Below, piece after piece: positions 4,600 to 44,826 of a stretch of 45,880 nucleotides of DNA (position 1 is its first letter; each line of letters starts with the position of its first letter). The notes beneath the pieces were generated by a model that saw only the letters and a list, made by a program, of their open reading frames with translations, made no database searches and was not told the DNA's origin. Origin of the DNA: Thermoguttaceae bacterium. Its GTDB lineage: Bacteria > Planctomycetota > Planctomycetia > Pirellulales > Thermoguttaceae. The position numbers were made by a program, and so were the translations under genes. The stretch lies in NCBI GenBank assembly GCA_017652805.1, contig JAGCAH010000020.1, positions 1 to 45,880 on the forward strand, in the 5' to 3' direction.

Positions 4600-7020
4600 A
4601 TGAAAAAGATCGAGCTTTCCCGCCGTCATTTCCTCGGAATGACCGCCCTCACCCCGATGGCCGCGATGATTTCCCGAGAAGCGCTCTTCGCCGCCGAAGC
4701 GGATGCCGTCCCCCGTTTCAAAGCGGCCAAACCGGTCTGGGCGTCGGAACGGGAAGAAGAAATGAACGTCTCGCTCGTCTTCTCGGCCGATATTGACATC
4801 GACGACCCCGTAGGTGTGATTCTGCGGGTAACCGGTTCGACGATCATGCGGATCCGCGTCAACAACGAGTTCGCCGGTTACGGCCCGGCGCGCGGCCCGC
4901 ACGGGTGGTTCCGAATCGACGAGTGGGACCTCTCCCGCCGCCTCGGCAAGGGGCATAACACCGTTCAGATCGAAGTTTCCGGATACAACAGCAACAGTTA
5001 CTACCTTCTCGATCAGCCCTCATTCCTGATCGCCGAGATCGAAGATACCGACGGAAACATCCTGGCTGCGACCGCCGTGTCGGAATCGGACGGCGCGCCC
5101 TCCCTCTTTTCGGCGATTGATCAGACTGGCCGCCGTCTTCAGAAAGTTCAACGGTTCAGTTTTCAGCGTCCGTTCGTTGAAGTCTACGACGACCGCCGTC
5201 CCTACGGTGCCGTGTCGCTTGCCGAGCAGCCGCCCGTTCGCTTCCTTCCCCGCCGCGTTCCATATCCCGAATTCGCCGTTCTCAGGCCGACGGCGTGGCT
5301 CCGGCGTGGGAAACTCTCCGAGCGAACCGTCGAAAAGCCGTGGCGGGATCGGAGTCTGACCCATATCAGCCCGAAACTCAAGGGATACAAGATGGACGAA
5401 CTGGAAGTCATCCTTTCCGACGAGGTACAGGCGCTCGAAACGACCTATCCCGACGACGCCGAGCCGCTCGGCGAAGGGGCGGTCTTTACCGCGTCCGACG
5501 CCCAGCTCGTCGATTTCGGCGCGAACCGTTGCGGCTTCTTCGGATTCGAACTCGACGACGTCGAGGAGGGAACCGAGATTCTCCTCACATTCGACGAAAT
5601 CCTGATGGAAGAGAGCGGAGACATTCTCTTTAACCGTCTGACAACCTGCAATGCGATCAAATGGACCCTTCGTGGGGACGAAAAGAATATCGAAGCGTTT
5701 GAACCTCAGGTCGGCCGTTACGCGAAAATCCACTGTCTGAAAGGTTCGTTCAAACTCAGAGGGTTCTACCTGCGTGAATACGCCTATCCCGAAATCCGAG
5801 AGGCCGCGTTCGCCTGTTCCGACCCGCGTCTTGAAAAACTCTTCCGGGCGGGAGTTTTGACGTTCCGCGAAAACGCGGTCGACGCGTTCACCGACTGCCC
5901 GCACCGCGAACGGGCCGGCTGGCTCTGCGACAGCTTCTTCACGGCGCGCACGGCGTTCGATCTGAGCGGCGTGACCGACGTCGAAGACACCTTCTTCGAA
6001 AACTACATGCTCCCCGACTCGTTCAAGGCGCTCCCCGACGGAATGCTCCCGATGTGTTACCCCGCCGACCATTACGACGGCATCTATATTCCGAACTGGT
6101 CCCTCTGGTTCGTAGTCGAACTGTCCGAATACGCCCGGCGCGGTGGGGATCAGGTGATCGTTTCCGGTCTGAAAACGAAAATCGAAAAGCTGATGGCGTT
6201 CTTCACTCAGTTCGAGAATTCGGACGGTCTTCTCGAAAAGCTCCGGAGCTGGGTCTTCGTGGAATGGTCCAAAGCGAACAGTTTCGTGCAGGACGTCAAC
6301 TATCCGAGCAACATGCTCTACGCGGCGGCGCTCGACGCGGCGGGAAAGCTGTACAACCGCGGCGACTGGCGGAAAAAAGCGGAGGCGATCCGCGAGACGA
6401 TCAACCGCCAGTCCTTCGACGGGGAATTCTTCGTCGACAATGCGATCCGCAAAGAGGACGGTTCCCTTGAAGTGACCCGAAACCGTTCGGAGGTCTGTCA
6501 GTATTTCGCCTTCTTCTTCGGTACCGCGACCCCCGAGTCGCATCCCGGACTCTGGAGCACCCTTCTGAACGACTTCGGTCCGCACCGCGTCGAAGAGGGA
6601 AAATATCCGGAAATTCATAAGGCAAACTCCTTTGTCGGGAACGTCCTGCGTCTCGAACTCCTCTCCCGGGCCGGTCGGGGCGCCCAGCTCCTCGAAGAGT
6701 CGGTCGCCTACAACGAATACATGGCGGATCGAACCGGAACACTCTGGGAAAACGACGGCGCTTATGCCAGCTGCAATCACGGATTCGCCTCGCACATCTG
6801 CCACGTACTCATCCGCGACGTGGTCGGGATCGCCGAGGTTGATGCGCAAAGCAAAACCGTCGTCGTTCAGTTTCAGGATTTCGCGGACCTCGACCGCGCC
6901 GCCGGCGTTCATCCGACTCCGGATGGGGCGGTCTCCCTCTCCTGGGAAAAGAGCGGCGGCGAATTCGGTTACACGCTCGACCTTCCCGACGGCTGGAAGG
7001 CGTCCGTCGCCGAGATTTAG
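4600..7020 (+). CDS. Exported alpha-L-rhamnosidase-like glycoside hydrolase (GH78 type)
   Basis: 806 residues. The N-terminus is a Tat signal: SRRHFLG followed by a hydrophobic stretch ending near ALFAAEA, so the protein is exported folded. An N-terminal beta-sandwich region (about 40-160, with GYGPARGPHGWFRIDEW) precedes a second sandwich and an (alpha/alpha)6 barrel from about residue 400. The barrel contains DCPHRERAGWLCD, the GH78 signature, with the three carboxylates at D432, E437 and D444 in the same spacing as the catalytic/sugar-binding acids of BsRhaB. A C-terminal sandwich closes the protein. Expected to release terminal L-rhamnose from glycans such as pectic rhamnogalacturonan or plant glycosides. 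GGAG lies just upstream of the ATG. A GH106-type rhamnosidase is encoded 6 kb away. Exact linkage is inferred from the family only. Confidence 0.82.
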   Translation: MKKIELSRRHFLGMTALTPMAAMISREALFAAEADAVPRFKAAKPVWASEREEEMNVSLVFSADIDIDDPVGVILRVTGSTIMRIRVNNEFAGYGPARGPHGWFRIDEWDLSRRLGKGHNTVQIEVSGYNSNSYYLLDQPSFLIAEIEDTDGNILAATAVSESDGAPSLFSAIDQTGRRLQKVQRFSFQRPFVEVYDDRRPYGAVSLAEQPPVRFLPRRVPYPEFAVLRPTAWLRRGKLSERTVEKPWRDRSLTHISPKLKGYKMDELEVILSDEVQALETTYPDDAEPLGEGAVFTASDAQLVDFGANRCGFFGFELDDVEEGTEILLTFDEILMEESGDILFNRLTTCNAIKWTLRGDEKNIEAFEPQVGRYAKIHCLKGSFKLRGFYLREYAYPEIREAAFACSDPRLEKLFRAGVLTFRENAVDAFTDCPHRERAGWLCDSFFTARTAFDLSGVTDVEDTFFENYMLPDSFKALPDGMLPMCYPADHYDGIYIPNWSLWFVVELSEYARRGGDQVIVSGLKTKIEKLMAFFTQFENSDGLLEKLRSWVFVEWSKANSFVQDVNYPSNMLYAAALDAAGKLYNRGDWRKKAEAIRETINRQSFDGEFFVDNAIRKEDGSLEVTRNRSEVCQYFAFFFGTATPESHPGLWSTLLNDFGPHRVEEGKYPEIHKANSFVGNVLRLELLSRAGRGAQLLEESVAYNEYMADRTGTLWENDGAYASCNHGFASHICHVLIRDVVGIAEVDAQSKTVVVQFQDFADLDRAAGVHPTPDGAVSLSWEKSGGEFGYTLDLPDGWKASVAEI

Positions 7021-12681: not shown

Positions 12682-15549
12682 TTATTTCACGAGACGAACC
12701 GGCCCGACCAGCCCGCTTTCGCGGAGAGGTTCGTCGGCGGCGTATCCCTGCCACGGATAAAATTTCTCACCGGCGGGATAAAACTGCACGTTCGTTTTGG
12801 TCAGGCGTTCTTCCGGCGGAAGTTGCGCGTCCCGAATCAGACGGTTCGACCAGGTATTGGTCACCCGGATCTTCAGTTCGTTCTTCCCTTCCCGCAACAA
12901 CTCGGCGGCGAGTCCTTTCCCGAGTGGCAGTCTCCAGGGGAACGTCCAAAGGACGCCGATGTCCGACCCGTTGATCTCGATCCGGGCGATCACCGCGGCG
13001 CGGCCGATATCGAGCGCCAGATTCTGATTTGCCAGATCTTCCGACGAAAGGGTAAAGGTCGTTTCGTAGTCCGCTGAACCGCTGTAATAGCGGATATTCG
13101 GATCGGCGTCTTCGTTCCAGAGCGTTAGCTTCTCAAAGACGGTCTCGGCGGGACCGCCACGGTCCGGATCGAACCGGACGCGCCACGGCCCGCTGAGTTC
13201 AATCCCCTCGTCCAATGACTTAAACTCGGAATCTTCAGCTCCTTCCAGAGGGGTGTCGGTAAAGAAAACGAAGGCGGAACCGTATTCGGGAAGAGAAACG
13301 GAAAGTGTCGTCAGATTCCCCTCAACCCGTTCCGGTTTCAGAGAAATGATTTCATCGGTTACCGGATTCCAGAGACTGATATACTGATTTTGAGCGCGGA
13401 ACGAACACTCGGCGCCGCAAGGAGTTCCCCGGGTGTTCACCACGAAATAGATATCCCCGTCGGCACAGCGGCGATGATGATACTCAAGCGGTCCGCTGAA
13501 ATCGGGCGACGCGTCTTCGGCCTGCATGACTTCCTGCGGGGTCATTCCGGTATAGACCGTTCCCTGGCCGAAAGAGCGGGAGCCGGAAGCGCCGTCCCCC
13601 CAGAGCCGGTCGACGATTTCGGCAAACCGCCGATCGCCGTCCTCCCCGTCCGAAAGGCCGACCGTCCGTTTCGGCCGATTCGGACCAAGAACGACCCGCC
13701 CGCCCGACTCAGCCAGAGCGAGGATCTTTTCAAGCGCCGCCAGAGGGAGTTCGTCATCTTCCGGATCGAAGACCAAAAACGTGTAACTCATCCCATCGGG
13801 GAGGGCGAACCGACCGTCTTTCCATTCCAGACGCTCGACGAGCGCCCGTGTATCGAAAAGGTCATACGCCGTCCCCGTCGGCGCGCCCCAGCCGGAACGC
13901 TCGTTCCATTTCGCGCCCCGCCCCCACATGCGGTAGTTCCGATCGCTGGTATAGACGGCGAAGTCCGCCACATAGAGCCCGGCGCGCAGAAGAGCCTGAC
14001 ACCGTCCCAAATAGGAAATGAAAGGCCCGGCGTCCTTTTGCCAGGTCACGTTCGAATTGATATGCGTTCCGGCGAAATACTCGATTCCCGGTTCGCCGTA
14101 CTCGGGAACGGGAGCCGTGTAGGTGTGCCAGATGAACATGTTCCCGCCGTCGATGAAATTCTGATCCGCCGAAGGTTTAAGCAACGTGGGCGAGAGAGAC
14201 CAGTGGCGCGTCATATGGGTAAACGCTTCCAGAGCGGTAAGGCCGCGCCCGTAGATATGTGAGGCCGAGGCGGCGAATTTGGCGTTGCTCTGCTCAGTGG
14301 GGGAATACCCTTCCTGCACCCAGAACTCCCCCTGCGGAATATCGTTCTCACCCCAGAACGTTAGCATATCGGCTTCGGTAAACATCGGCGCGCGGCGGTT
14401 CCAGGGACCGCCGTCTTCGGAATGCCAGAACGTCCCGTTCTGATGGCAGAGTTCGCCGATCTTTTGGTAACAATTCTCGCGAAACGCATCGGCCACCGTC
14501 TTGTGGAAATCGGTCATAAAACGTCGCGTCGTCTCCGGATCCTTAACCGTCATCCCCGCCAGAACCGGCATATAGGGGAGGATGTCGTATCCCCGCTTCT
14601 TCGCGAAGAAGCGATCGAACCGGTCGGTCCAGTTCGGATTCGCCCCTTCCCAGCTCACGTTATAGAAACCGGTTAACGTGTTGCCGACAAGAGGTTTGTC
14701 CGACTCCTTTTCGATCTTGGCGGCCCGACGTATGAGCGCGCCGGCCATCTTATCAAAATAGGAGGCGGTAATCCTGGAATTGAGAATATCGACGCTTCCG
14801 ACGTCGCCGGTCACCACCGAACCGATCCGGATAACCGTCCAGCCGGACTGCTCGGCGGGGGGAATCCAGTCGATCCGTCCGCGACGGAGCGCATCGGTCA
14901 GATCAATCGTCTCCAACGCCACCGGCGCGCCGTCGGCGGGGGGAGCGGCGGGCTGAAACGCCGAAAAGCCGTCGGTCGGTTTCAGATCGCGATCAACGCG
15001 GATCGCCAGGAGCGCCACGTCGCGGTAGTACCGCTGATAGACCGGCTGGCGAAGAAGGAGCTCGATCGGCTCGCCCGGGGTCGGCACCAGGGTCTGGGTA
15101 ATCAGGGTCCGGGGACCGTCGGCGGCAAGATCCCACGGGCCTCGAAGGGAACCGCCGGTATTCGAAAGGTTGAGACTGACCTTCAGTCCGAGCCGGTCGG
15201 CCTCGGTGATCAGATGGAGAACAAGCTCCTGCCACGGGACCGACATGAACTCATGACGAACCGGAACCGGGACGGGGATGTGATTCTCGGCATCTTCGTG
15301 ATACCCGCGCGAGTCGATAACGAGGACTCCGCCGAACCCGAGCTCTTTCATTCGGGTCAGATCGGCGGTAATCGACTCCATCGAAACGTTCCCCTTAATC
15401 CAAAAGTAATACGCCCAGGGGCGGCAGTCGTCGGGAACCGACCGAAACTCGGACGGCGCTGGAACTCTCTCGCCTTCGGCCGCAAACACCGCGGACAGAA
15501 GGATCAGAGAATAGGCCAAAAGAAGCAAAGGAAAAAAACGACGCGGCAT
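12682..15549 (-). CDS. Secreted alpha-L-rhamnosidase-like glycoside hydrolase (GH106 type)
   Basis: 955 residues. The N-terminus is a Sec signal (MPRRFFPLLLLAYSLILLSA, cleavage near VFAAEG). The mature protein opens with RPWAYYFWIKGNVSMESI and LTRMKELGFGGVLVID, the strand and helix that open the TIM-barrel of GH106-type enzymes. The C-terminal region has the jelly-roll pattern SGPWRVRFDP, YETTFTL and NTWSNRLIRDAQLPPEER, also typical of that group. Expected to cleave alpha-L-rhamnosyl bonds in pectic side chains; the substrate is inferred. The start at 15549 is chosen over an upstream ATG because GAGGTTG lies 6 bases before it and it begins the signal peptide. It lies 160 bases downstream of metY, beyond a likely terminator, so it probably has its own promoter, which I could not place with confidence. 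Confidence 0.8.
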   Translation of the reverse strand: MPRRFFPLLLLAYSLILLSAVFAAEGERVPAPSEFRSVPDDCRPWAYYFWIKGNVSMESITADLTRMKELGFGGVLVIDSRGYHEDAENHIPVPVPVRHEFMSVPWQELVLHLITEADRLGLKVSLNLSNTGGSLRGPWDLAADGPRTLITQTLVPTPGEPIELLLRQPVYQRYYRDVALLAIRVDRDLKPTDGFSAFQPAAPPADGAPVALETIDLTDALRRGRIDWIPPAEQSGWTVIRIGSVVTGDVGSVDILNSRITASYFDKMAGALIRRAAKIEKESDKPLVGNTLTGFYNVSWEGANPNWTDRFDRFFAKKRGYDILPYMPVLAGMTVKDPETTRRFMTDFHKTVADAFRENCYQKIGELCHQNGTFWHSEDGGPWNRRAPMFTEADMLTFWGENDIPQGEFWVQEGYSPTEQSNAKFAASASHIYGRGLTALEAFTHMTRHWSLSPTLLKPSADQNFIDGGNMFIWHTYTAPVPEYGEPGIEYFAGTHINSNVTWQKDAGPFISYLGRCQALLRAGLYVADFAVYTSDRNYRMWGRGAKWNERSGWGAPTGTAYDLFDTRALVERLEWKDGRFALPDGMSYTFLVFDPEDDELPLAALEKILALAESGGRVVLGPNRPKRTVGLSDGEDGDRRFAEIVDRLWGDGASGSRSFGQGTVYTGMTPQEVMQAEDASPDFSGPLEYHHRRCADGDIYFVVNTRGTPCGAECSFRAQNQYISLWNPVTDEIISLKPERVEGNLTTLSVSLPEYGSAFVFFTDTPLEGAEDSEFKSLDEGIELSGPWRVRFDPDRGGPAETVFEKLTLWNEDADPNIRYYSGSADYETTFTLSSEDLANQNLALDIGRAAVIARIEINGSDIGVLWTFPWRLPLGKGLAAELLREGKNELKIRVTNTWSNRLIRDAQLPPEERLTKTNVQFYPAGEKFYPWQGYAADEPLRESGLVGPVRLVK

Positions 15550-15690
15550 TTCAACCTCACGAAGCGGTCTAATCGACAAAAGAAAAGAAACAACAACGGC
15601 ACGCCAGACGCGGCCGACGGAAACGAAGCGCGGGAACCGGCCGCGCCGCCCAATGAGGCGGCACCTTCGCCCGATCCGCGCGCTCCGACG

Positions 15691-27335: not shown

Positions 27336-28412
27336 CTAGTTCAATTCAATCCACTTCCCGCCGGATTGAGCCGACTGATGAGCGGCATAACAGAGCCGGA
27401 CATTCCGAAGACCGTCCGAACCGTCGAGGGGTCTCTTTTCAATGATCGAAAGAGCGTGGCAGCGAATCATCTCCTGATAGATGTTCGGCGTCGGCTCGTC
27501 GGCGAGCGTGATCGTCTCCTGAGAGGAGAAGCGGTCAAGCTCCAGACGCATCGGAACCGGCTCGTCGGGATACCCGGAGAGCTGGAACATCGAACCGAAA
27601 CTCCGCAGTACTGCATCGCTGCCGTAAAGTTCATAGCCGAGATTCGAAAGTGTTCCGCCCAAACCGCCCCGCAGTTCGCTGAACGCCACGCGAACCGAAC
27701 CGGCAAGCGCTCCGTCCATTTTGAAACGGATGTAAGCGCCGTCTTCGGCCTCGATCCCGAGCGTCTTGGGGTAATAGACCGCCGCCAGGGCATCGATCTT
27801 TTTGCCGAAGATGAATTCGGCCATATAGAAGCAGTGACTGGCGACATCGCCGATCGGTCCGCCGAGTTCGGAAACATTGGCGCACCGCCAGGTCGCGGCC
27901 TCTTCCGGAGTAAACCCGTAGGCGAACTCCATGTGGAAACAGGAATCGTTGACCGCGCCGAGTTTCCTCTGCGCGACGAGCTCGCGGGCAAAGCGGTTCA
28001 GCTTGTTGTGAACCATCATATGGTCGACACCGAGCGAAAGACCTTTTTCGACCGCGAGTTTCGAGATCGATTCCGCATCGGCCACCGTCGGAGCCAGCGG
28101 TTTTTCCAAAAGGGCGTGTTTCCCGGCCCTGAGCGCCTTTCCGGCCAGAGGGGCGTGGGTGGTGTTGTTCGTCGCGATATAAACCGCATCGATCTCCGGG
28201 TCGGCCAGAACGGCGTCGACGTCGGAATACCAGCGGAGCCCGAGCGATTCGGCGGTCTCGCGGCGCGCGGGATTCACGTCACACGCGCCGAGAAGTTCAT
28301 ATTCCGCCGGCGAGACGGTGAAACGAGTCTTATCGCACGCGAATCCCTCTTTGGCGATCCGGTTTTCGGCAATCCCGCCGAAGCCGATCAGGGCATATTT
28401 AACCTTACTCAT
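27336..28412 (-). CDS. Gfo/Idh/MocA family NAD(P)-dependent sugar oxidoreductase
   Basis: 358 residues. Rossmann fold with the dinucleotide loop LIGFGGIAENR at 8-17, then YIATNNTTHAPLAGKAL and the EKPLA motif (EKP at 103-105) that carries the catalytic lysine of this family. The C-terminal alpha/beta domain has ELGGPIGDVASHCFYMAEF, with the DxxxH-type pair common in active members. No Tat signal, so it acts in the cytoplasm. Substrates in the family are sugars, inositols and amino-sugar nucleotides; this one is unassigned. Last gene of a five-gene minus-strand run, 22 bases after the DegT gene. RBS AAAGG lies before the ATG. Confidence 0.85.
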   Translation of the reverse strand: MSKVKYALIGFGGIAENRIAKEGFACDKTRFTVSPAEYELLGACDVNPARRETAESLGLRWYSDVDAVLADPEIDAVYIATNNTTHAPLAGKALRAGKHALLEKPLAPTVADAESISKLAVEKGLSLGVDHMMVHNKLNRFARELVAQRKLGAVNDSCFHMEFAYGFTPEEAATWRCANVSELGGPIGDVASHCFYMAEFIFGKKIDALAAVYYPKTLGIEAEDGAYIRFKMDGALAGSVRVAFSELRGGLGGTLSNLGYELYGSDAVLRSFGSMFQLSGYPDEPVPMRLELDRFSSQETITLADEPTPNIYQEMIRCHALSIIEKRPLDGSDGLRNVRLCYAAHQSAQSGGKWIELN

Positions 28413-28434
28413 AAAAGCCTTTCTTTGCTGACGT

Positions 28435-29700
28435 TTATTTCATGTAGGCGTCGGCCACTTTCTTGAACGCGTCAATACAGGCCTGAATGTGCCGCGGTTC
28501 ATAAACCGGATGGGTGAAGAACGAAATGGTGCGGTCTGTCATCCAGTTCGCCTGTTTGCAGTTGAACTGCGTGTAATCAATATGGCGCGCCGCCGGATCC
28601 TCGAACGGATATCGTTTTTCACCGAAGCCAAACCGGTCGACGAAAGCTTTCTCTTTGTACATCTCGGGCCAGAGAACCGAATAGACCGGAACACCCTCGG
28701 CAGCGACCGCGGCGATGAACTTTTTAATATCGACGCCGTCGATAAATTTGTCCGTATCGAGGACGAACGGAGCCCACCAGAAGGCGTTCTGACGTTCATC
28801 AGTATCGGGCGGACAGTAGAGAACGAGCGGATGATCTTTGAACGCGTCTATCAGCATCCGGCCGTTGCGGCGGCGGTTCGGCAGGTTCCACGTGTCGAAC
28901 CGCTCCAGTTCGCACAGGCCGATCTGAGACTGCATTTCGGTCATACGGAAATTATACCCGACCCGGCGGTGGATATACATCAGTTTCCCTTCCATCTCGA
29001 GAAGGTTCAGCCGTTCGCGAACGTCGTAGCCGTGATCGCGGAGCGAACGGCACTCCCAGGCGACTTCGTCGTTGTCGGTCACCACCATGCCCCCTTCGCC
29101 GCCGGTGGTAAAGTGTTTGCTCTGGCAGAAGCTGAAACAGCCGACGTCCCCGATCGTCCCGGCTTTCTTCCCCTTGTAGACACCGCCGAAGCACTGCGCG
29201 CAGTCTTCGATGATCTTCAGATTGTACTTTTTGGCCAGGGCGATGATCGGATCCATATCGACGACGATCCCGTAAAGGTGAACAAGAAGGATCGCCCTCG
29301 TCCGTTCGGTGATCTTATGTTCGATATCCTCCGGCGAAAGAACATGGTCCGTCCCGACGTCGGCAAAGACCGGAAGGGCGCCGGCCTGAAGAACCGCGAA
29401 ACTCGAAGCGATAAAGCTGTAACTCGTACAGATCACCTCGTCGCCGGGGCCGATCCCGAGCGCCGAAACCGCGACATGGAGCGCCTCGGTACCGTTGCCG
29501 ACGCTGATCGCGTTCTTCGTCCCGAGCCATTCGGCCCACTTCTTTTCAAATTCCATTCCGATCGGTCCGGTCCAATAGTTGACCTTTCCGGAACGGAGGA
29601 CGTCTGCCGCCTTCTGAATAGTTGACTCTTCAAAACTGGGCCATCCGGGAAACGGTTCGTTAAAGGTCTTTTCGCCGCCATCGATTGCAAGTTTACTCAT
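28435..29700 (-). CDS. DegT/DnrJ/EryC1/StrS family PLP aminotransferase
   Basis: 421 residues. Fold type I sugar aminotransferase: SVGNGTEALHVAVSALGIG, CTSYSFIASSFAVLQAGA, IIEDCAQCFGG, and the cofactor lysine K195 in SFCQSKHFTTGGEGGMVVT. These enzymes convert keto-sugars or keto-cyclitols to amino forms, or (DegT-like) act as dehydratases; the lysine argues for aminotransfer. AAGGAG is 6-7 bases before the ATG at 29700, so the ATG five codons upstream is unlikely. It is followed by a Gfo/Idh gene. DegT plus Gfo/Idh pairs occur in kanosamine, aminocyclitol and diacetamido-sugar routes, which suggests but does not prove amino-sugar chemistry here. Confidence 0.87.
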   Translation of the reverse strand: MSKLAIDGGEKTFNEPFPGWPSFEESTIQKAADVLRSGKVNYWTGPIGMEFEKKWAEWLGTKNAISVGNGTEALHVAVSALGIGPGDEVICTSYSFIASSFAVLQAGALPVFADVGTDHVLSPEDIEHKITERTRAILLVHLYGIVVDMDPIIALAKKYNLKIIEDCAQCFGGVYKGKKAGTIGDVGCFSFCQSKHFTTGGEGGMVVTDNDEVAWECRSLRDHGYDVRERLNLLEMEGKLMYIHRRVGYNFRMTEMQSQIGLCELERFDTWNLPNRRRNGRMLIDAFKDHPLVLYCPPDTDERQNAFWWAPFVLDTDKFIDGVDIKKFIAAVAAEGVPVYSVLWPEMYKEKAFVDRFGFGEKRYPFEDPAARHIDYTQFNCKQANWMTDRTISFFTHPVYEPRHIQACIDAFKKVADAYMK

Positions 29701-29777
29701 TGAGGTCTCCTTCACATTTCATTCAGGTATTTAAATACAGTTACATTTGTGTTGCAGTTTAAAAATGGACGTCCCGA

Positions 29778-31133
29778 TCATCCTTCTGCGTTGAGCCGGT
29801 TCAGCATACCGTAAACCAGCTTTCGCACTTTCCGTTCTGCGAGCGGTTCAAGGCAACTCGTCCGTGCCCGCCATGTCGTGTATCCGCCGAGACGGAACGA
29901 CTCTTCGGTCGGCATATAGCCGTTACAGCCGTTCGCCAGAGAAATGACGATCGTGTGCGGGAACGGGCTCATAAAACGGATTTCCCGGCCGGTCGCGGTA
30001 TAAACCTCCATCGGAAGCGCGACGATCGCGGTATCGCCGACACGGAGGGTCTGAATTTTCACCTCGCGCGTCGAGGGAAGCTTGCTCAAAGCGACCGATT
30101 CCCACGCGTAGGCGTCGTCGTAGTCCTTCAGCCCCTTGATCGAATCGATCCCCCGATCGGCCAGGTACGCTTCTGCCTGCCGGAGCTGATCGGCCGTCGG
30201 CTGACGAATCGCCAGTGTCAGCTTCTCTTCTATCATCGCAAGACGCGGGGTCGGATTGAACTCAATCTCCCGATAGGCTCCGAGCGCCACTTTGGCGACC
30301 GATTCGCCGACCGAGATCTTTCCGAACTCCCGTTTAGGATTTCCGAGAAAATCGATACTGTTGCAGTCGCCGCTGGTTCCGTTCGACATGATCGCGGTAA
30401 ACCCTTCCTGCGCGTTAAGCCCTTTGGCCATTCGGTCACAGAACACGCCGAAATAGTCCGCCGAAATCGCTTTCTCCTCGGCATAGTGGGTCGAATAGTT
30501 CCCCAGAAGCGCGTAAGCAGCGCCGTCGGGAGTACGCAGGGCCAGAATCCGAACGCCGGGATCCGCTTTGTCAGTCGGACAGACGACGTTTTTTTCAATC
30601 CCGAACGGGTTCATCTGCGCGATATCGCCGGGCGAGCCGGTAAACTCGGGATTGACGGTCCAGGCTGTTCCCGGTTTCATGATGAACCGACGGCAGAAGA
30701 CGTTTTTCGGATCTTCCCCCTGTCCGAACCCGGCTTCCACCTCCGAAAAGCTTTCAGACGCCTTTTGAGCGGCCTCGACAATCTTTCCGGAAAGGAAGGC
30801 CGCGTACTCTTCGTCAACTCCGGTTCCCAGAATCGCCTCGACGCTCGGCGCCGAATGGCAGTGTGTCGCGGAGATGAGAATACGATCCTCCGGGATGCCG
30901 GTTGTCTGCTGAATTCTCGCTTTTGCCGCGTCAAGAAAGGTTCCCGACATCATACAGGTGTCGACCACCGCCAGCATGACTTTTTCATTCCCCTGACGAA
31001 ACACAAACGCGCGAACCGAAAGAGGATCGCCGATTTCGTTAAACCAGCGTTCCTCAAACTGACCGTTCACCATCACCGGTAATTTTGTCGGGGTCACATC
31101 GACTCGAGCCCGACCGGCATAAAGTTTTTCCAT
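29778..31133 (-). CDS. Neutral/alkaline ceramidase-like N-terminal domain protein
   Basis: 451 residues. It begins LYAGRARVDVTP and continues with RAFVFRQGNEKVMLAVVDT, ISATHCHSAPSVEA (the THTHSGP-like metal-site motif of neutral ceramidases), FGVFCDRMA and SNGTSGDCNSIDF. The family's second, C-terminal domain is missing. Such short versions are common in planctomycetes and usually of unknown function, so ceramide cleavage should not be assumed. No signal peptide is seen. The ATG at 31133 is chosen over one 16 codons upstream because GGAG lies about 9 bases before it and similarity begins there. Gaps of 77 and 72 bases separate it from the DegT and AKR genes on the same strand. Confidence 0.78.
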   Translation of the reverse strand: MEKLYAGRARVDVTPTKLPVMVNGQFEERWFNEIGDPLSVRAFVFRQGNEKVMLAVVDTCMMSGTFLDAAKARIQQTTGIPEDRILISATHCHSAPSVEAILGTGVDEEYAAFLSGKIVEAAQKASESFSEVEAGFGQGEDPKNVFCRRFIMKPGTAWTVNPEFTGSPGDIAQMNPFGIEKNVVCPTDKADPGVRILALRTPDGAAYALLGNYSTHYAEEKAISADYFGVFCDRMAKGLNAQEGFTAIMSNGTSGDCNSIDFLGNPKREFGKISVGESVAKVALGAYREIEFNPTPRLAMIEEKLTLAIRQPTADQLRQAEAYLADRGIDSIKGLKDYDDAYAWESVALSKLPSTREVKIQTLRVGDTAIVALPMEVYTATGREIRFMSPFPHTIVISLANGCNGYMPTEESFRLGGYTTWRARTSCLEPLAERKVRKLVYGMLNRLNAEG

Positions 31134-31205
31134 CACTTGCTCTCCAAAGATGATCGGAAAGGAAAACCGTCGCGCCCCCAATGGGCGGCGGAGAGAATAA
31201 TAACG

Positions 31206-32147
31206 TTAAGGTTGGTCGTGAACCGATATCCTCGTCTTCCCGTGAAGCTCCTCGGCGCGACGCGGCCAGAGGAAGGGACGGATGAGACTCTCTTCCAGGA
31301 GAGGAATCTCGGTTCGAATCCGTTCGACCGCACCGCCGGGAAGAGCCCCCTTCCCGGCGAAAGAGCAATTCTCGGCAAGCTGCTTTTTATTATCGACTCC
31401 GAAAACGACGCTCGCAACCCCCGGAAGGGAGATGAGATATCGAAAACAGAGCTCCTTGACCGAAATACCGAGCGAATCGGCAATTTTCCGCGCCTTTTCG
31501 CGCCAGGCGAGGAGCTCCCGCAGATGCGGAGGAACATCAGCGTCGGGCATCAACAAAAGCCCCTGAAGACAGGCGCTCCGGGTGAAAACGAACGCCCCCC
31601 GCTGCGGTGCGCTGTCGATGAACTCGTCAAACCGCCGATCAAGCAAATTCGAAGGGAGCTGTACATACTTGGCGCGCCCGACAACCTCCCGAAAATCCGT
31701 GAGCGCGCGTTGTGAGTCGAGCGAGATTCCCGCGCCGTCGGCATACCCCTCCGCACAAACGCGTTCCAAAACGGTGAAATGGGGAAGGTTCTGTTCATTG
31801 TGTATCAAAACCGCCCGGAGCTTCGAACGGCGAAGCCGTCTGAGCGATCGCTCGAGGGATTCCCGAATCAAACGCTCGGCGTCTTTTTCGGACGTCTCGG
31901 CGGGAAAGATCGGCACCTTGGTAATGATCTGGAATTTGTCGGCGAGCCCCGACTCTTCCAGAGCCCGACCGAGAACTTCTTCGCTGGTACCGTAGGCAGC
32001 GGCGGTATCGAGCGTGTTGACGCCGAAATCGGCGGCGGCGCGAAGAATCCCAATCACCTTTTCAAGGGAAGGCTGACCTTCTTTGTTGGCAATTCCGTAG
32101 TTGAGACCGAATTGAACCGTTCCCAACATCATTTTTGAAAAGATCAT
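31206..32147 (-). CDS. Aldo/keto reductase
   Basis: 313 residues. All four catalytic residues are visible: D47 and Y52 in NTLDTAAAYGTSEEVLG, K77 in IITKVPI and H116 in AVLIHNEQN. The N-terminus KMMLGTVQFGLNYG resembles bacterial AKRs encoded near sugar-modification genes. The C-terminal SVVFGVDNKKQLAEN fits the NADPH-binding end. Expected to reduce or oxidise a sugar aldehyde or ketone in the cytoplasm. The ATG at 32147 overlaps the SDR stop (ATGA), so the two are translationally coupled; the frame reaches further upstream inside the SDR gene but that part shows no AKR similarity. Confidence 0.87.
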   Translation of the reverse strand: MIFSKMMLGTVQFGLNYGIANKEGQPSLEKVIGILRAAADFGVNTLDTAAAYGTSEEVLGRALEESGLADKFQIITKVPIFPAETSEKDAERLIRESLERSLRRLRRSKLRAVLIHNEQNLPHFTVLERVCAEGYADGAGISLDSQRALTDFREVVGRAKYVQLPSNLLDRRFDEFIDSAPQRGAFVFTRSACLQGLLLMPDADVPPHLRELLAWREKARKIADSLGISVKELCFRYLISLPGVASVVFGVDNKKQLAENCSFAGKGALPGGAVERIRTEIPLLEESLIRPFLWPRRAEELHGKTRISVHDQP

Positions 32148-32914
32148 CGGGCCGTATACCCTCCGTCGACGGGAATGTTCGCACCGGTAATATAGGCCGA
32201 AGCTTCGGACGCCAGAAAGACGATCGCCCCTTTCAGATCGTTCTGACCGGCCAGGCGGCCCAACGGAGTATTCTTGCAATAGTTCCGAACGAACGCCTCG
32301 GGCTGATGATTCGCCAGCCCCCCCGGATGAATGCAGTTGACACGGATGTTAAACGGCCCGAGTTCACTGGCGGCCCAGCGGGTAAAGTTCGCCATTCCCC
32401 CTTTTTCGAAAAAGTAAATCGGCGAGGGGGTTCCCATCCCTTCGGTTCCCTCGTAATTCGTCGGATTCCCCCCGACGAGTCCCATATACGAGCCGATGTT
32501 GATCACCGAACCGGAGGAGTTTTTCTTCATCCATTCCACCGCGCGCCGTGTGATATGAAAGAGGGACGAAACATTGATCCGCAGACTCTCGTCGAAGATA
32601 TCCATCGACTGATCCCAACGGGCGCAGGCGCACCGGGTCACGGCGTTATTGACCAGGATATCGATCCGCCCCGATTTCTCGGCGACCGTTTCAATCAGAC
32701 GATCGATCGACTCCTCCGAAGCGAGATCGAGTTCGAAGGCATGAGCCCCGAGCGGATCGGCGACTTTTTTGAGAGCATCAAGGTTGCGAGAGGCAATCCA
32801 GACATCGGCGCCTGCTTCGCAAAGAGCCTCGGTAATCTGACGCCCATACAACCCGGCGCCCCCGGTCAGGATCGCGGTTTTCCCTTTGAGTGAAAAGAGA
32901 TCCATTACGTTCAT
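32144..32914 (-). CDS. Short-chain dehydrogenase/reductase
   Basis: 256 residues, classical SDR. Cofactor loop TGGAGLYGRQI (17-27), NNAV, catalytic S142 in INIGSYMG, and Y167/K171 in YFFEKGGMAN. The C-terminus IVFLASEASAYITGANIPVDG is standard. It probably acts on a sugar or polyol; it is first in a five-gene run with AKR, ceramidase-like, DegT and Gfo/Idh genes. AGGAGA lies 9 bases before the ATG, and a good promoter is found 160-190 bases upstream. Confidence 0.88.
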   Translation of the reverse strand: MNVMDLFSLKGKTAILTGGAGLYGRQITEALCEAGADVWIASRNLDALKKVADPLGAHAFELDLASEESIDRLIETVAEKSGRIDILVNNAVTRCACARWDQSMDIFDESLRINVSSLFHITRRAVEWMKKNSSGSVINIGSYMGLVGGNPTNYEGTEGMGTPSPIYFFEKGGMANFTRWAASELGPFNIRVNCIHPGGLANHQPEAFVRNYCKNTPLGRLAGQNDLKGAIVFLASEASAYITGANIPVDGGYTAR

Positions 32915-33075: not shown

Positions 33076-33104
33076 AATATACCATCTTCGTTTTCGGTTC
33101 GCAA
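33076..33104 (-). promoter_or_regulatory. Promoter of the SDR-to-Gfo/Idh operon
   Basis: On the minus strand TTGCGA (33099-33104), 17-base spacer, TATATT (33076-33081), starting directly after the YdjY stop codon. The leader would be about 155 bases (32915-33069); it is GC-rich with short CCCG/CGGG stems but no riboswitch I recognise. Confidence 0.55.
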
Positions 33105-43716: not shown

Positions 43717-44826
43717 ATGAATCGTATCTTCGCATTCACTTTGTCGTTATTCCTTTCCGCTTTCTTTTGCTCCCCTCTCCTTTCCGATGAACTCATCGAA
43801 GGAGAAGATTATGTTTTCGTCACCCACGACGGGGGGGCCGGGGGATATGAGGCGTTCCCCGACATCTGCCGACTCAAAGACGGACGGCTTCTGTGCGTCT
43901 TTTATGACGGGTACGGCCATATCGCGTTTCCGAACGCCGAAATCTTTAAAACCGGCGGACGAATTTCGGGATGTTATTCTTCCGACGAAGGAAAAACGTG
44001 GAGCGAACCGTTTGTCATTTTCGATTCCCCCTTCGATGACCGCGACCCTTCGGTAACCGCTCTGGACGACGGAACCCTTCTCTGCGCGTTTTTTATTCTC
44101 GATAAGCCGATCGACCCGAAGGCGAGATACCGAAAGCTGGGATCCTGGTACATCCGATCCAATGACGGGGGAGCGTCGTGGAGTGAACCGACGCCCATTT
44201 CGGACCGATTTTGGGGATCCTCGCCGATCCGGATTCTCAAAAACGGACGATGGATCGCCGGGCTCTACAACCAGAATCAGGAAATGAAGGCGGCGGTCGG
44301 AATTTCCGACGATCAGGGGAAGCATTGGCAAGTCGTCATCGTCCCAATGTCAGGCCGTCCCGACGGAGACGAAACCGACCTGATCGAGCGGAGTGACGGT
44401 TCGCTTCTCCTGTATATCAGAAGCCGCAAAGGAGCCGAGCCCCACCCCATGCTTGTCAGTCGTTCCTATGACGGCGGTCAGTCGTGGACGGAGGCGGAAA
44501 GCGCCGGCTTTTCGGGACATTGTCCCTATTTTTATAAGACACCCGAAGGGGTTTTCGTGCTGGGAACAAGAACGGGAACAACCGTTCTGAGCGGAGACGG
44601 GGTCATTCCCGAAACAACCACCATCCGAATCAGTTTTGACGAGGGAGAGACCTGGAGTGCTCCCGTAACGGTTGATCACTGTTTGGGCGCCTACCCCTCG
44701 ATGGTCACGCTCCGCGACGGATCAACCCTCATCGTTTACTATGAGGAAAAAGAGGGCTCGAATATCCGCGCCCGAAAATACCGCATTTCAAACGGCGGGG
44801 TCGAGTGGCTGAAGTTCGACAGGTAA
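43717..44826 (+). CDS. Secreted sialidase-like (BNR/Asp-box) protein
   Basis: 369 residues. Signal peptide RIFAFTLSLFLSAFFCSPLL, cleavage near LSDE. The mature part is a single six-bladed propeller with five Asp boxes (SSDEGKTW, SNDGGASW, SDDQGKHW, SYDGGQSW, SFDEGETW) and blade starts such as FPDICRLKDGRLLCVFYDG. The fold is that of sialidases and related glycoside hydrolases. The RIP arginine motif of GH33 is not seen, so sialic acid as substrate is uncertain. AGGAGA lies before the ATG. It follows the kinase gene by 42 bases and could be in the same transcript, which would tie glycan use to the two-component pair. Confidence 0.8.
   Translation: MNRIFAFTLSLFLSAFFCSPLLSDELIEGEDYVFVTHDGGAGGYEAFPDICRLKDGRLLCVFYDGYGHIAFPNAEIFKTGGRISGCYSSDEGKTWSEPFVIFDSPFDDRDPSVTALDDGTLLCAFFILDKPIDPKARYRKLGSWYIRSNDGGASWSEPTPISDRFWGSSPIRILKNGRWIAGLYNQNQEMKAAVGISDDQGKHWQVVIVPMSGRPDGDETDLIERSDGSLLLYIRSRKGAEPHPMLVSRSYDGGQSWTEAESAGFSGHCPYFYKTPEGVFVLGTRTGTTVLSGDGVIPETTTIRISFDEGETWSAPVTVDHCLGAYPSMVTLRDGSTLIVYYEEKEGSNIRARKYRISNGGVEWLKFDR

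Follow-up and report, generated by a model that had tools for sequence, protein, structure and literature searches.

The window, a 45,880-nucleotide stretch (positions 1 to 45,880 of contig JAGCAH010000020.1) from a Thermoguttaceae bacterium, belongs to the draft assembly of a gut planctomycete (2.68 Mb in 286 contigs, 87% complete) whose nearest named relative in the collection searched is the uncultured planctomycete RUG695, with 98% identity in the aminotransferase described below. It contains an operon of five genes, predicted to be a single transcription unit, with the following components.

33076..33104, minus strand: predicted promoter, TTGCGA (-35), 17-base spacer and TG-extended TATATT (-10), from a consensus scan and conservation in the genus
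32144..32914, minus strand: SDR-family oxidoreductase (SDR), 256 aa, Pfam PF13561, 157 bits
31206..32147, minus strand: aldo/keto reductase (AKR), 313 aa, Pfam PF00248, 110 bits
29778..31133, minus strand: single-domain ceramidase-like putative zinc amidase (CER), 451 aa, Pfam PF04734, 38.5 bits
28435..29700, minus strand: DegT/DnrJ/EryC1/StrS aminotransferase (DegT), 421 aa, Pfam PF01041, 293 bits (cut-off 19.8)
27336..28412, minus strand: Gfo/Idh/MocA oxidoreductase (Gfo/Idh), 358 aa, Pfam PF01408, 90 bits
27293..27329, minus strand: predicted intrinsic terminator hairpin after the Gfo/Idh gene, -28.9 kcal/mol, z -4.2

The first-pass annotation, made from the sequence alone, had described five same-strand genes of these families with translational coupling between SDR and AKR, and the open reading frames and Pfam matches bear this out: all five proteins score above their family cut-offs, CER barely (cut-off 32.1 bits), and the SDR stop and AKR start share the four bases ATGA. 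The remaining genes are separated by 72 (AKR-CER), 77 (CER-DegT) and 22 (DegT-Gfo/Idh) bases, using the ATG at 31133 as the start of CER and the ATG at 29700 as the start of DegT and setting aside upstream alternatives in the list of open reading frames. None of the five N-termini resembles a signal peptide by eye, in agreement with the earlier view of a single cytoplasmic set, and the products are probably cytoplasmic. Elsewhere in the window are genes for a BNR-repeat (sialidase-like) protein (43717-44826), a GH106 alpha-L-rhamnosidase (12682-15579) and a second rhamnosidase-like protein (4600-7020).

The predicted promoter lies directly 3' of the stop codon of a ydjY-like gene, where it had been proposed. 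A consensus scan alone gives four promoter matches where 3.3 are expected, which is the level of chance, and the weight that we place on this promoter comes from its conservation in the genus and not from its consensus match: three further genomes, making four in the genus with that of the window, retain the -35 and -10 elements and their spacing, L093 differing at a single base of the -10 region, and the intergenic DNA around them has diverged. The terminator that had been placed after Gfo/Idh is a strong hairpin, more stable than any of 200 shuffled sequences; by eye, such a hairpin is also present in the three further genomes, and a scan for short-loop hairpins did not pick it up at 27329-27293. 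Given this predicted terminator, the ComF-like gene downstream of Gfo/Idh is probably a separate unit.

All five enzymes look active, judging by their intact catalytic residues. SDR has Ser142, Tyr167 and Lys171, and its closest NCBIfam models are gluconate 5-dehydrogenase-like, with scores under their cut-offs. AKR has Asp47, Tyr52, Lys77 and His116, and Gfo/Idh has Lys104 (of an EKP motif), Asp189 and His193; the closest NCBIfam model to the latter is IolG, at 76 bits against a cut-off of 355. DegT has Asp166 and the PLP lysine Lys195, which is invariant in 17 orthologues.

CER matches the profile of the neutral ceramidase 2zws (E 4e-27) with the His, Glu and Tyr metal ligands in register, and its zinc-ligand residues (H91/H93, H216, E376 and Y406) are invariant in 26 relatives. 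A structure model of CER (pLDDT 93.9) aligns with 2zws across the whole protein (Z 40.4, rmsd 3.6, 398 residues aligned), and the end of the model falls at residue 490 of the 2zws chain, of which 630 residues were solved, such that the C-terminal domain is absent. CER has the catalytic-domain fold (Z 37-40) and metal ligands of neutral ceramidases (PDB 2zws, 2zxc and 4wgk; PF04734) in common with them; unlike them it has 451 residues, no C-terminal domain and no evident signal peptide, and it is encoded in a probable sugar operon. It scores 18.1 bits on the neutral-ceramidase equivalog model, for which the cut-off is 1200, and by the tests made here CER is a single-domain relative of the ceramidases and not a ceramidase. 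Such proteins are abundant in Planctomycetes, a single genome having as many as 22 matches, and we found no description of their function in open-access full texts.

The solved protein closest to DegT is 7L7X (Pcryo_0638), a UDP-4-keto-6-deoxy-GlcNAc C4 aminotransferase, the product of which is UDP-2-acetamido-4-amino-2,4,6-trideoxy-glucose (PMC8040287). In an alignment of the two, the residue of 7L7X that binds the 2-acetamido group, Gln183, is matched by DegT Gln193, the UDP contacts Lys215 and Tyr229 are replaced by Tyr225 and Leu240, and the position of Phe335 is occupied by an aromatic residue; Gln193, Tyr225 and Leu240 are each invariant in 17 orthologues. The DegT pocket would thus fit an acetamido sugar without UDP, although the authors of the 7L7X structure caution against inferring ligands from alignments. 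The replacement of two UDP contacts sets DegT apart from nucleotide-sugar C4 aminotransferases only weakly, given that PglE and DesI also bind the ligand differently. DegT scores 207 bits on the PseC model against a cut-off of 423 and likewise falls under the cut-off for LegC. It shares with Pcryo_0638, PseC and LegC the DegT fold family, the PLP lysine and the glutamine for the 2-acetamido group, and it is unlike them in the replacement of the two UDP contacts and in having recurrent gene neighbors that do not include nucleotide-sugar genes.

These relatives raise the alternative that the operon is biosynthetic, in which Gfo/Idh would oxidize a sugar or nucleotide sugar and DegT would aminate it, CER would trim an acyl group, AKR and SDR would add modifications, and the product would enter a surface glycan or small molecule. 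We regard biosynthesis as unlikely. In its favor, the closest solved or named relatives of DegT (7L7X, PseC and LegC) are biosynthetic, and nonulosonate-like clusters that contain DegT genes (L269-L271, found in a survey for AKR, their gene content judged by eye) also encode relatives of AKR with 31-33% identity, such that AKR is a weak marker of the set. The replaced UDP contacts argue against it, as do the gene neighborhoods of DegT orthologues, where no family of glycosyltransferases, nucleotidyltransferases or 4,6-dehydratases recurs among the 25 families listed. The NeuB matches in the genus are weak (34-37 bits for frames of 334-338 aa in four genomes, whose assemblies are incomplete, versus 144 bits in G034) and may also count against it; we take them as putative DAHP synthases.

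A tree of 86 DegT proteins puts the DegT of the window in a clade (support 99/95) whose other members come from Lentisphaerota, Kiritimatiellota, Omnitrophota and further lineages, separate from DegT proteins of the window's own family such as that of L176. Within the genus its identity is 98%, compared with 83-88% for AKR and 87-94% for CER. The high identity within the genus and the grouping outside the family suggest that this DegT may have spread horizontally among gut bacteria, for which a single gene tree is no proof. Carriage as viral cargo was considered and rejected, the only match on a viral contig being a 25% relative.

The exact order of the five genes, whose conservation across planctomycetes had been put forward as a check, occurs, among the genomes searched, in this genus alone: synteny is seen in four of its seven genomes (G000, G002, G004 and G006) and is missing from all further relatives covered by the search, and we rejected the five-gene order as a planctomycete-wide feature. 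G001, G003 and G005, also of the genus, contain no close orthologue of CER, AKR, DegT or Gfo/Idh. Of nine genomes compared, six have both DegT and its Gfo/Idh and three have neither; the two genes are on separate contigs in G057. Among planctomycete relatives from beyond the genus, a Gfo/Idh gene stands beside DegT in 11/17 loci, versus 0/40 for control DegT genes (p 7e-8), and the enrichment of CER is not significant (2/17 versus 1/40 controls); because of this, the association of CER with DegT rests on a set drawn from across phyla. The sole CER-positive locus among the 40 controls (L227:5067-13667, in G057) has two other DegT genes flanked by two ceramidase-like genes.

This set was obtained by a scan of one genome per species for 84,980 species, from which the best 80 DegT relatives, of 54-98% identity and from many phyla, were taken. 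Within 5.5 kb on the same strand, 50/80 have a Gfo/Idh gene, 31/80 have a CER gene and 22/80 have both, in a census that used profiles derived from these 80 loci and in which several contigs are short. With the genus member L112 removed, the counts are 49/79 for Gfo/Idh and 30/79 for CER among orthologues of 54-80% identity, versus 0/40 and 1/40 for control DegT genes drawn only from the family and order of the window (Fisher p 8e-13 and 1e-5, respectively), which rules out an association common to any DegT gene. A DegT-Gfo/Idh pair as the core of the operon is therefore supported by its recurrence in many phyla, and the ceramidase-like protein, proposed as a new member of such a set, recurs with both and retains its amidase metal site. 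Where DegT is more distant, the neighboring Gfo/Idh proteins share only 24-30% identity with that of the window, for which reason their role may differ.

SDR and AKR join the pair, which outside the genus is often accompanied by CER, in only a few distant genomes. All five families occur together in L158 and L161, from Clostridia MAGs, and in L187, from a Hydrogenedentota MAG in which CER and AKR are on the opposite strand; by tblastn, the SDRs of these loci are 47-52% identical and the AKRs 31-33% identical (128-160 bits) to those of the window. Among 99 relatives, the best AKR outside the genus scores 57 bits against the AKR of the window, and in a survey of the phylum AKRs as close as 128-160 bits were found in 8/392 genomes, that of the window included. 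This distribution bears on the possibility that one promoter serves two modules, with SDR and AKR, often with a second Gfo/Idh (labeled Gfo-x), belonging to one sugar pathway and CER, DegT and Gfo/Idh to another. SDR accompanies Gfo-x in L124, L158, L161 and L187, the AKR survey returned a locus (L268) with AKR, SDR and CER together and DegT absent, and most DegT-CER-Gfo/Idh loci include neither SDR nor AKR. However, the five families co-occur in three distant genomes, and a single promoter and a single terminator enclose all five genes in four genomes of the genus, and we consider the division into two modules improbable.

The genes beside DegT orthologues are of the kind expected for uptake and breakdown and not for nucleotide-sugar biosynthesis. 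The operons of L158 and L161 begin with a ROK regulator, CER, two small proteins, DegT, a PIG-L protein, a NagB-like protein and a NagA-like amidohydrolase, and continue with Gfo/Idh, a GNAT protein (in L158 only), a DHDPS-family aldolase, AKR, SDR and Gfo-x. The pair of small proteins (approximately 150-190 aa) accompanies the set at L158:8032-8945, L161:7949-8925 and L187:17166-18271 and has no Pfam match. The NagB-like proteins of the Clostridial operons match solved glucosamine-6-phosphate deaminases by profile (E 1e-17), and their family assignment rests on these profile matches, the structure model being moderate (pLDDT 78). The DegT operons of L116, L124 and L128 encode SSF transporters, and that of L134 encodes a sugar-type MFS transporter. 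A Pfam scan of 78 operon neighbors of DegT orthologues, chosen by hand, is led by PIG-L (9), ROK (7), Gfo/Idh (6) and DHDPS (5), and none of the 25 families listed from it is a glycosyltransferase or nucleotidyltransferase. The association with uptake and with deacetylase/deaminase genes that marks an amino-sugar catabolic operon is thus found at the orthologous loci and not in the operon of the window itself, within which there is no transporter, kinase, PIG-L or NagB gene. A NagB-like orthologue is present in 7/7 genomes of the genus and adjoins PIG-L genes in L246, L247 and L249; in L246 (8959-10707) the NagB-like gene, whose sequence has diverged strongly, precedes the PIG-L gene. Four genomes of the genus, the assembly of the window not among them, encode Gfo-x with a transporter in which a NanM-like domain is fused to SSF, together with secreted-looking beta-helix proteins, in what is probably a glycan-utilization locus (L241-L244).

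The first-pass annotation had left the substrate as an amino sugar or an aminocyclitol. Our analyses favor the amino sugar, and nothing favors an aminocyclitol over it. In aminocyclitol catabolism, an inosamine or its N-acyl form would be converted by DegT to an inosose and Gfo/Idh would be an inositol dehydrogenase, consistent with IolG as the best named match of Gfo/Idh, with inosose aminotransferases among the best solved matches of DegT, and with a TIM-barrel protein and a PfkB kinase beside DegT orthologues. We consider this highly unlikely given that the NagA-like and NagB-like companions favor a hexosamine and that the IolG score is far under its cut-off.

We hypothesize that the operon degrades an N-acylated amino sugar, or a close analogue of one, that the cell imports, a reading to which we assign an even chance; this N-acyl amino sugar route is probably for eating rather than making the sugar. 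Catabolism had been the last alternative of the first-pass annotation, which envisaged the pathway run in reverse, and it fits the wider evidence best, since DegT orthologues adjoin PIG-L, NagA-like, NagB-like, ROK and DHDPS genes and sugar transporters. It is also supported by the DegT sequence, which keeps the 2-acetamido glutamine of 7L7X and not its two UDP contacts, and by the amidase metal site and ceramidase fold of CER. Counting against breakdown are the characterized close relatives of DegT, which all make amino sugars, the absence of uptake, kinase and deacetylase/deaminase genes from the operon itself, the non-significant enrichment of CER among planctomycete relatives, the choice by hand of the neighbors in the census, the low identity of the distant Gfo/Idh proteins noted above, and the consideration that relatives of neutral ceramidase could hydrolyze something other than an amide. 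We infer the substrate, the direction, the sequence of reactions and the parts played by SDR and AKR as follows. The sugar would be imported by a transporter encoded elsewhere in the genome, and CER, as a cytoplasmic zinc amidase, would remove the N-acyl group. DegT would then transfer the freed ring amine, probably not that at C2, to a 2-oxo acid to give a keto-sugar, which Gfo/Idh would reduce with NAD(P)H, and SDR and AKR may perform additional redox reactions on that sugar or on the released one. An amine at C2 would fall to the PIG-L and NagB-like pair that genomes of the genus encode at other loci. More tentatively, we speculate that CER as deacylase, a deaminating DegT and Gfo/Idh might form a widespread amino-sugar dissimilation pathway of gut and sediment bacteria from many phyla that removes a non-C2 ring amine, for example from the 3-amino, 4-amino or diamino hexoses of microbial surface glycans.

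Several known systems resemble parts of this set. Families of the Nag pathway (NagA, NagB and a ROK regulator) and PIG-L deacetylases recur beside DegT orthologues, but the operon of the window contains none of those genes and has CER, DegT and Gfo/Idh in their place. The kanosamine operon ntdABC pairs a DegT aminotransferase with a Gfo/Idh dehydrogenase, as here, and differs in its phosphatase gene and in lacking CER, SDR and AKR. A kanosamine operon is ruled out by the absence of a phosphatase among the five genes in Pfam and by NtdA being a distant match of DegT (E 2e-35). Rhizopine (moc) and inositol (iol) catabolism employ a Gfo/Idh dehydrogenase in the breakdown of a sugar or cyclitol, and to our knowledge DegT and CER are not part of either; the Gfo/Idh of the window is unlike the inositol-pathway dehydrogenase in scoring under the IolG cut-off. 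Open-access full texts, including those on kanosamine and inosamine catabolism and on ceramidase-like proteins in sugar loci, contain no account that we found of the CER-DegT-Gfo/Idh core or the five-gene set, in keeping with the earlier suggestion that the set is undescribed. Every family in the set is already known.

The finding is worth following up, and the set, being compact and apparently soluble, is amenable to direct work with purified enzymes. We know of no DegT aminotransferase with an assigned role other than making amino sugars. If our hypothesis is correct, a conserved clade of DegT proteins that dismantles amino sugars would give a large enzyme family a new function, and the operon would provide the first metabolic setting for the single-domain ceramidase-like proteins.
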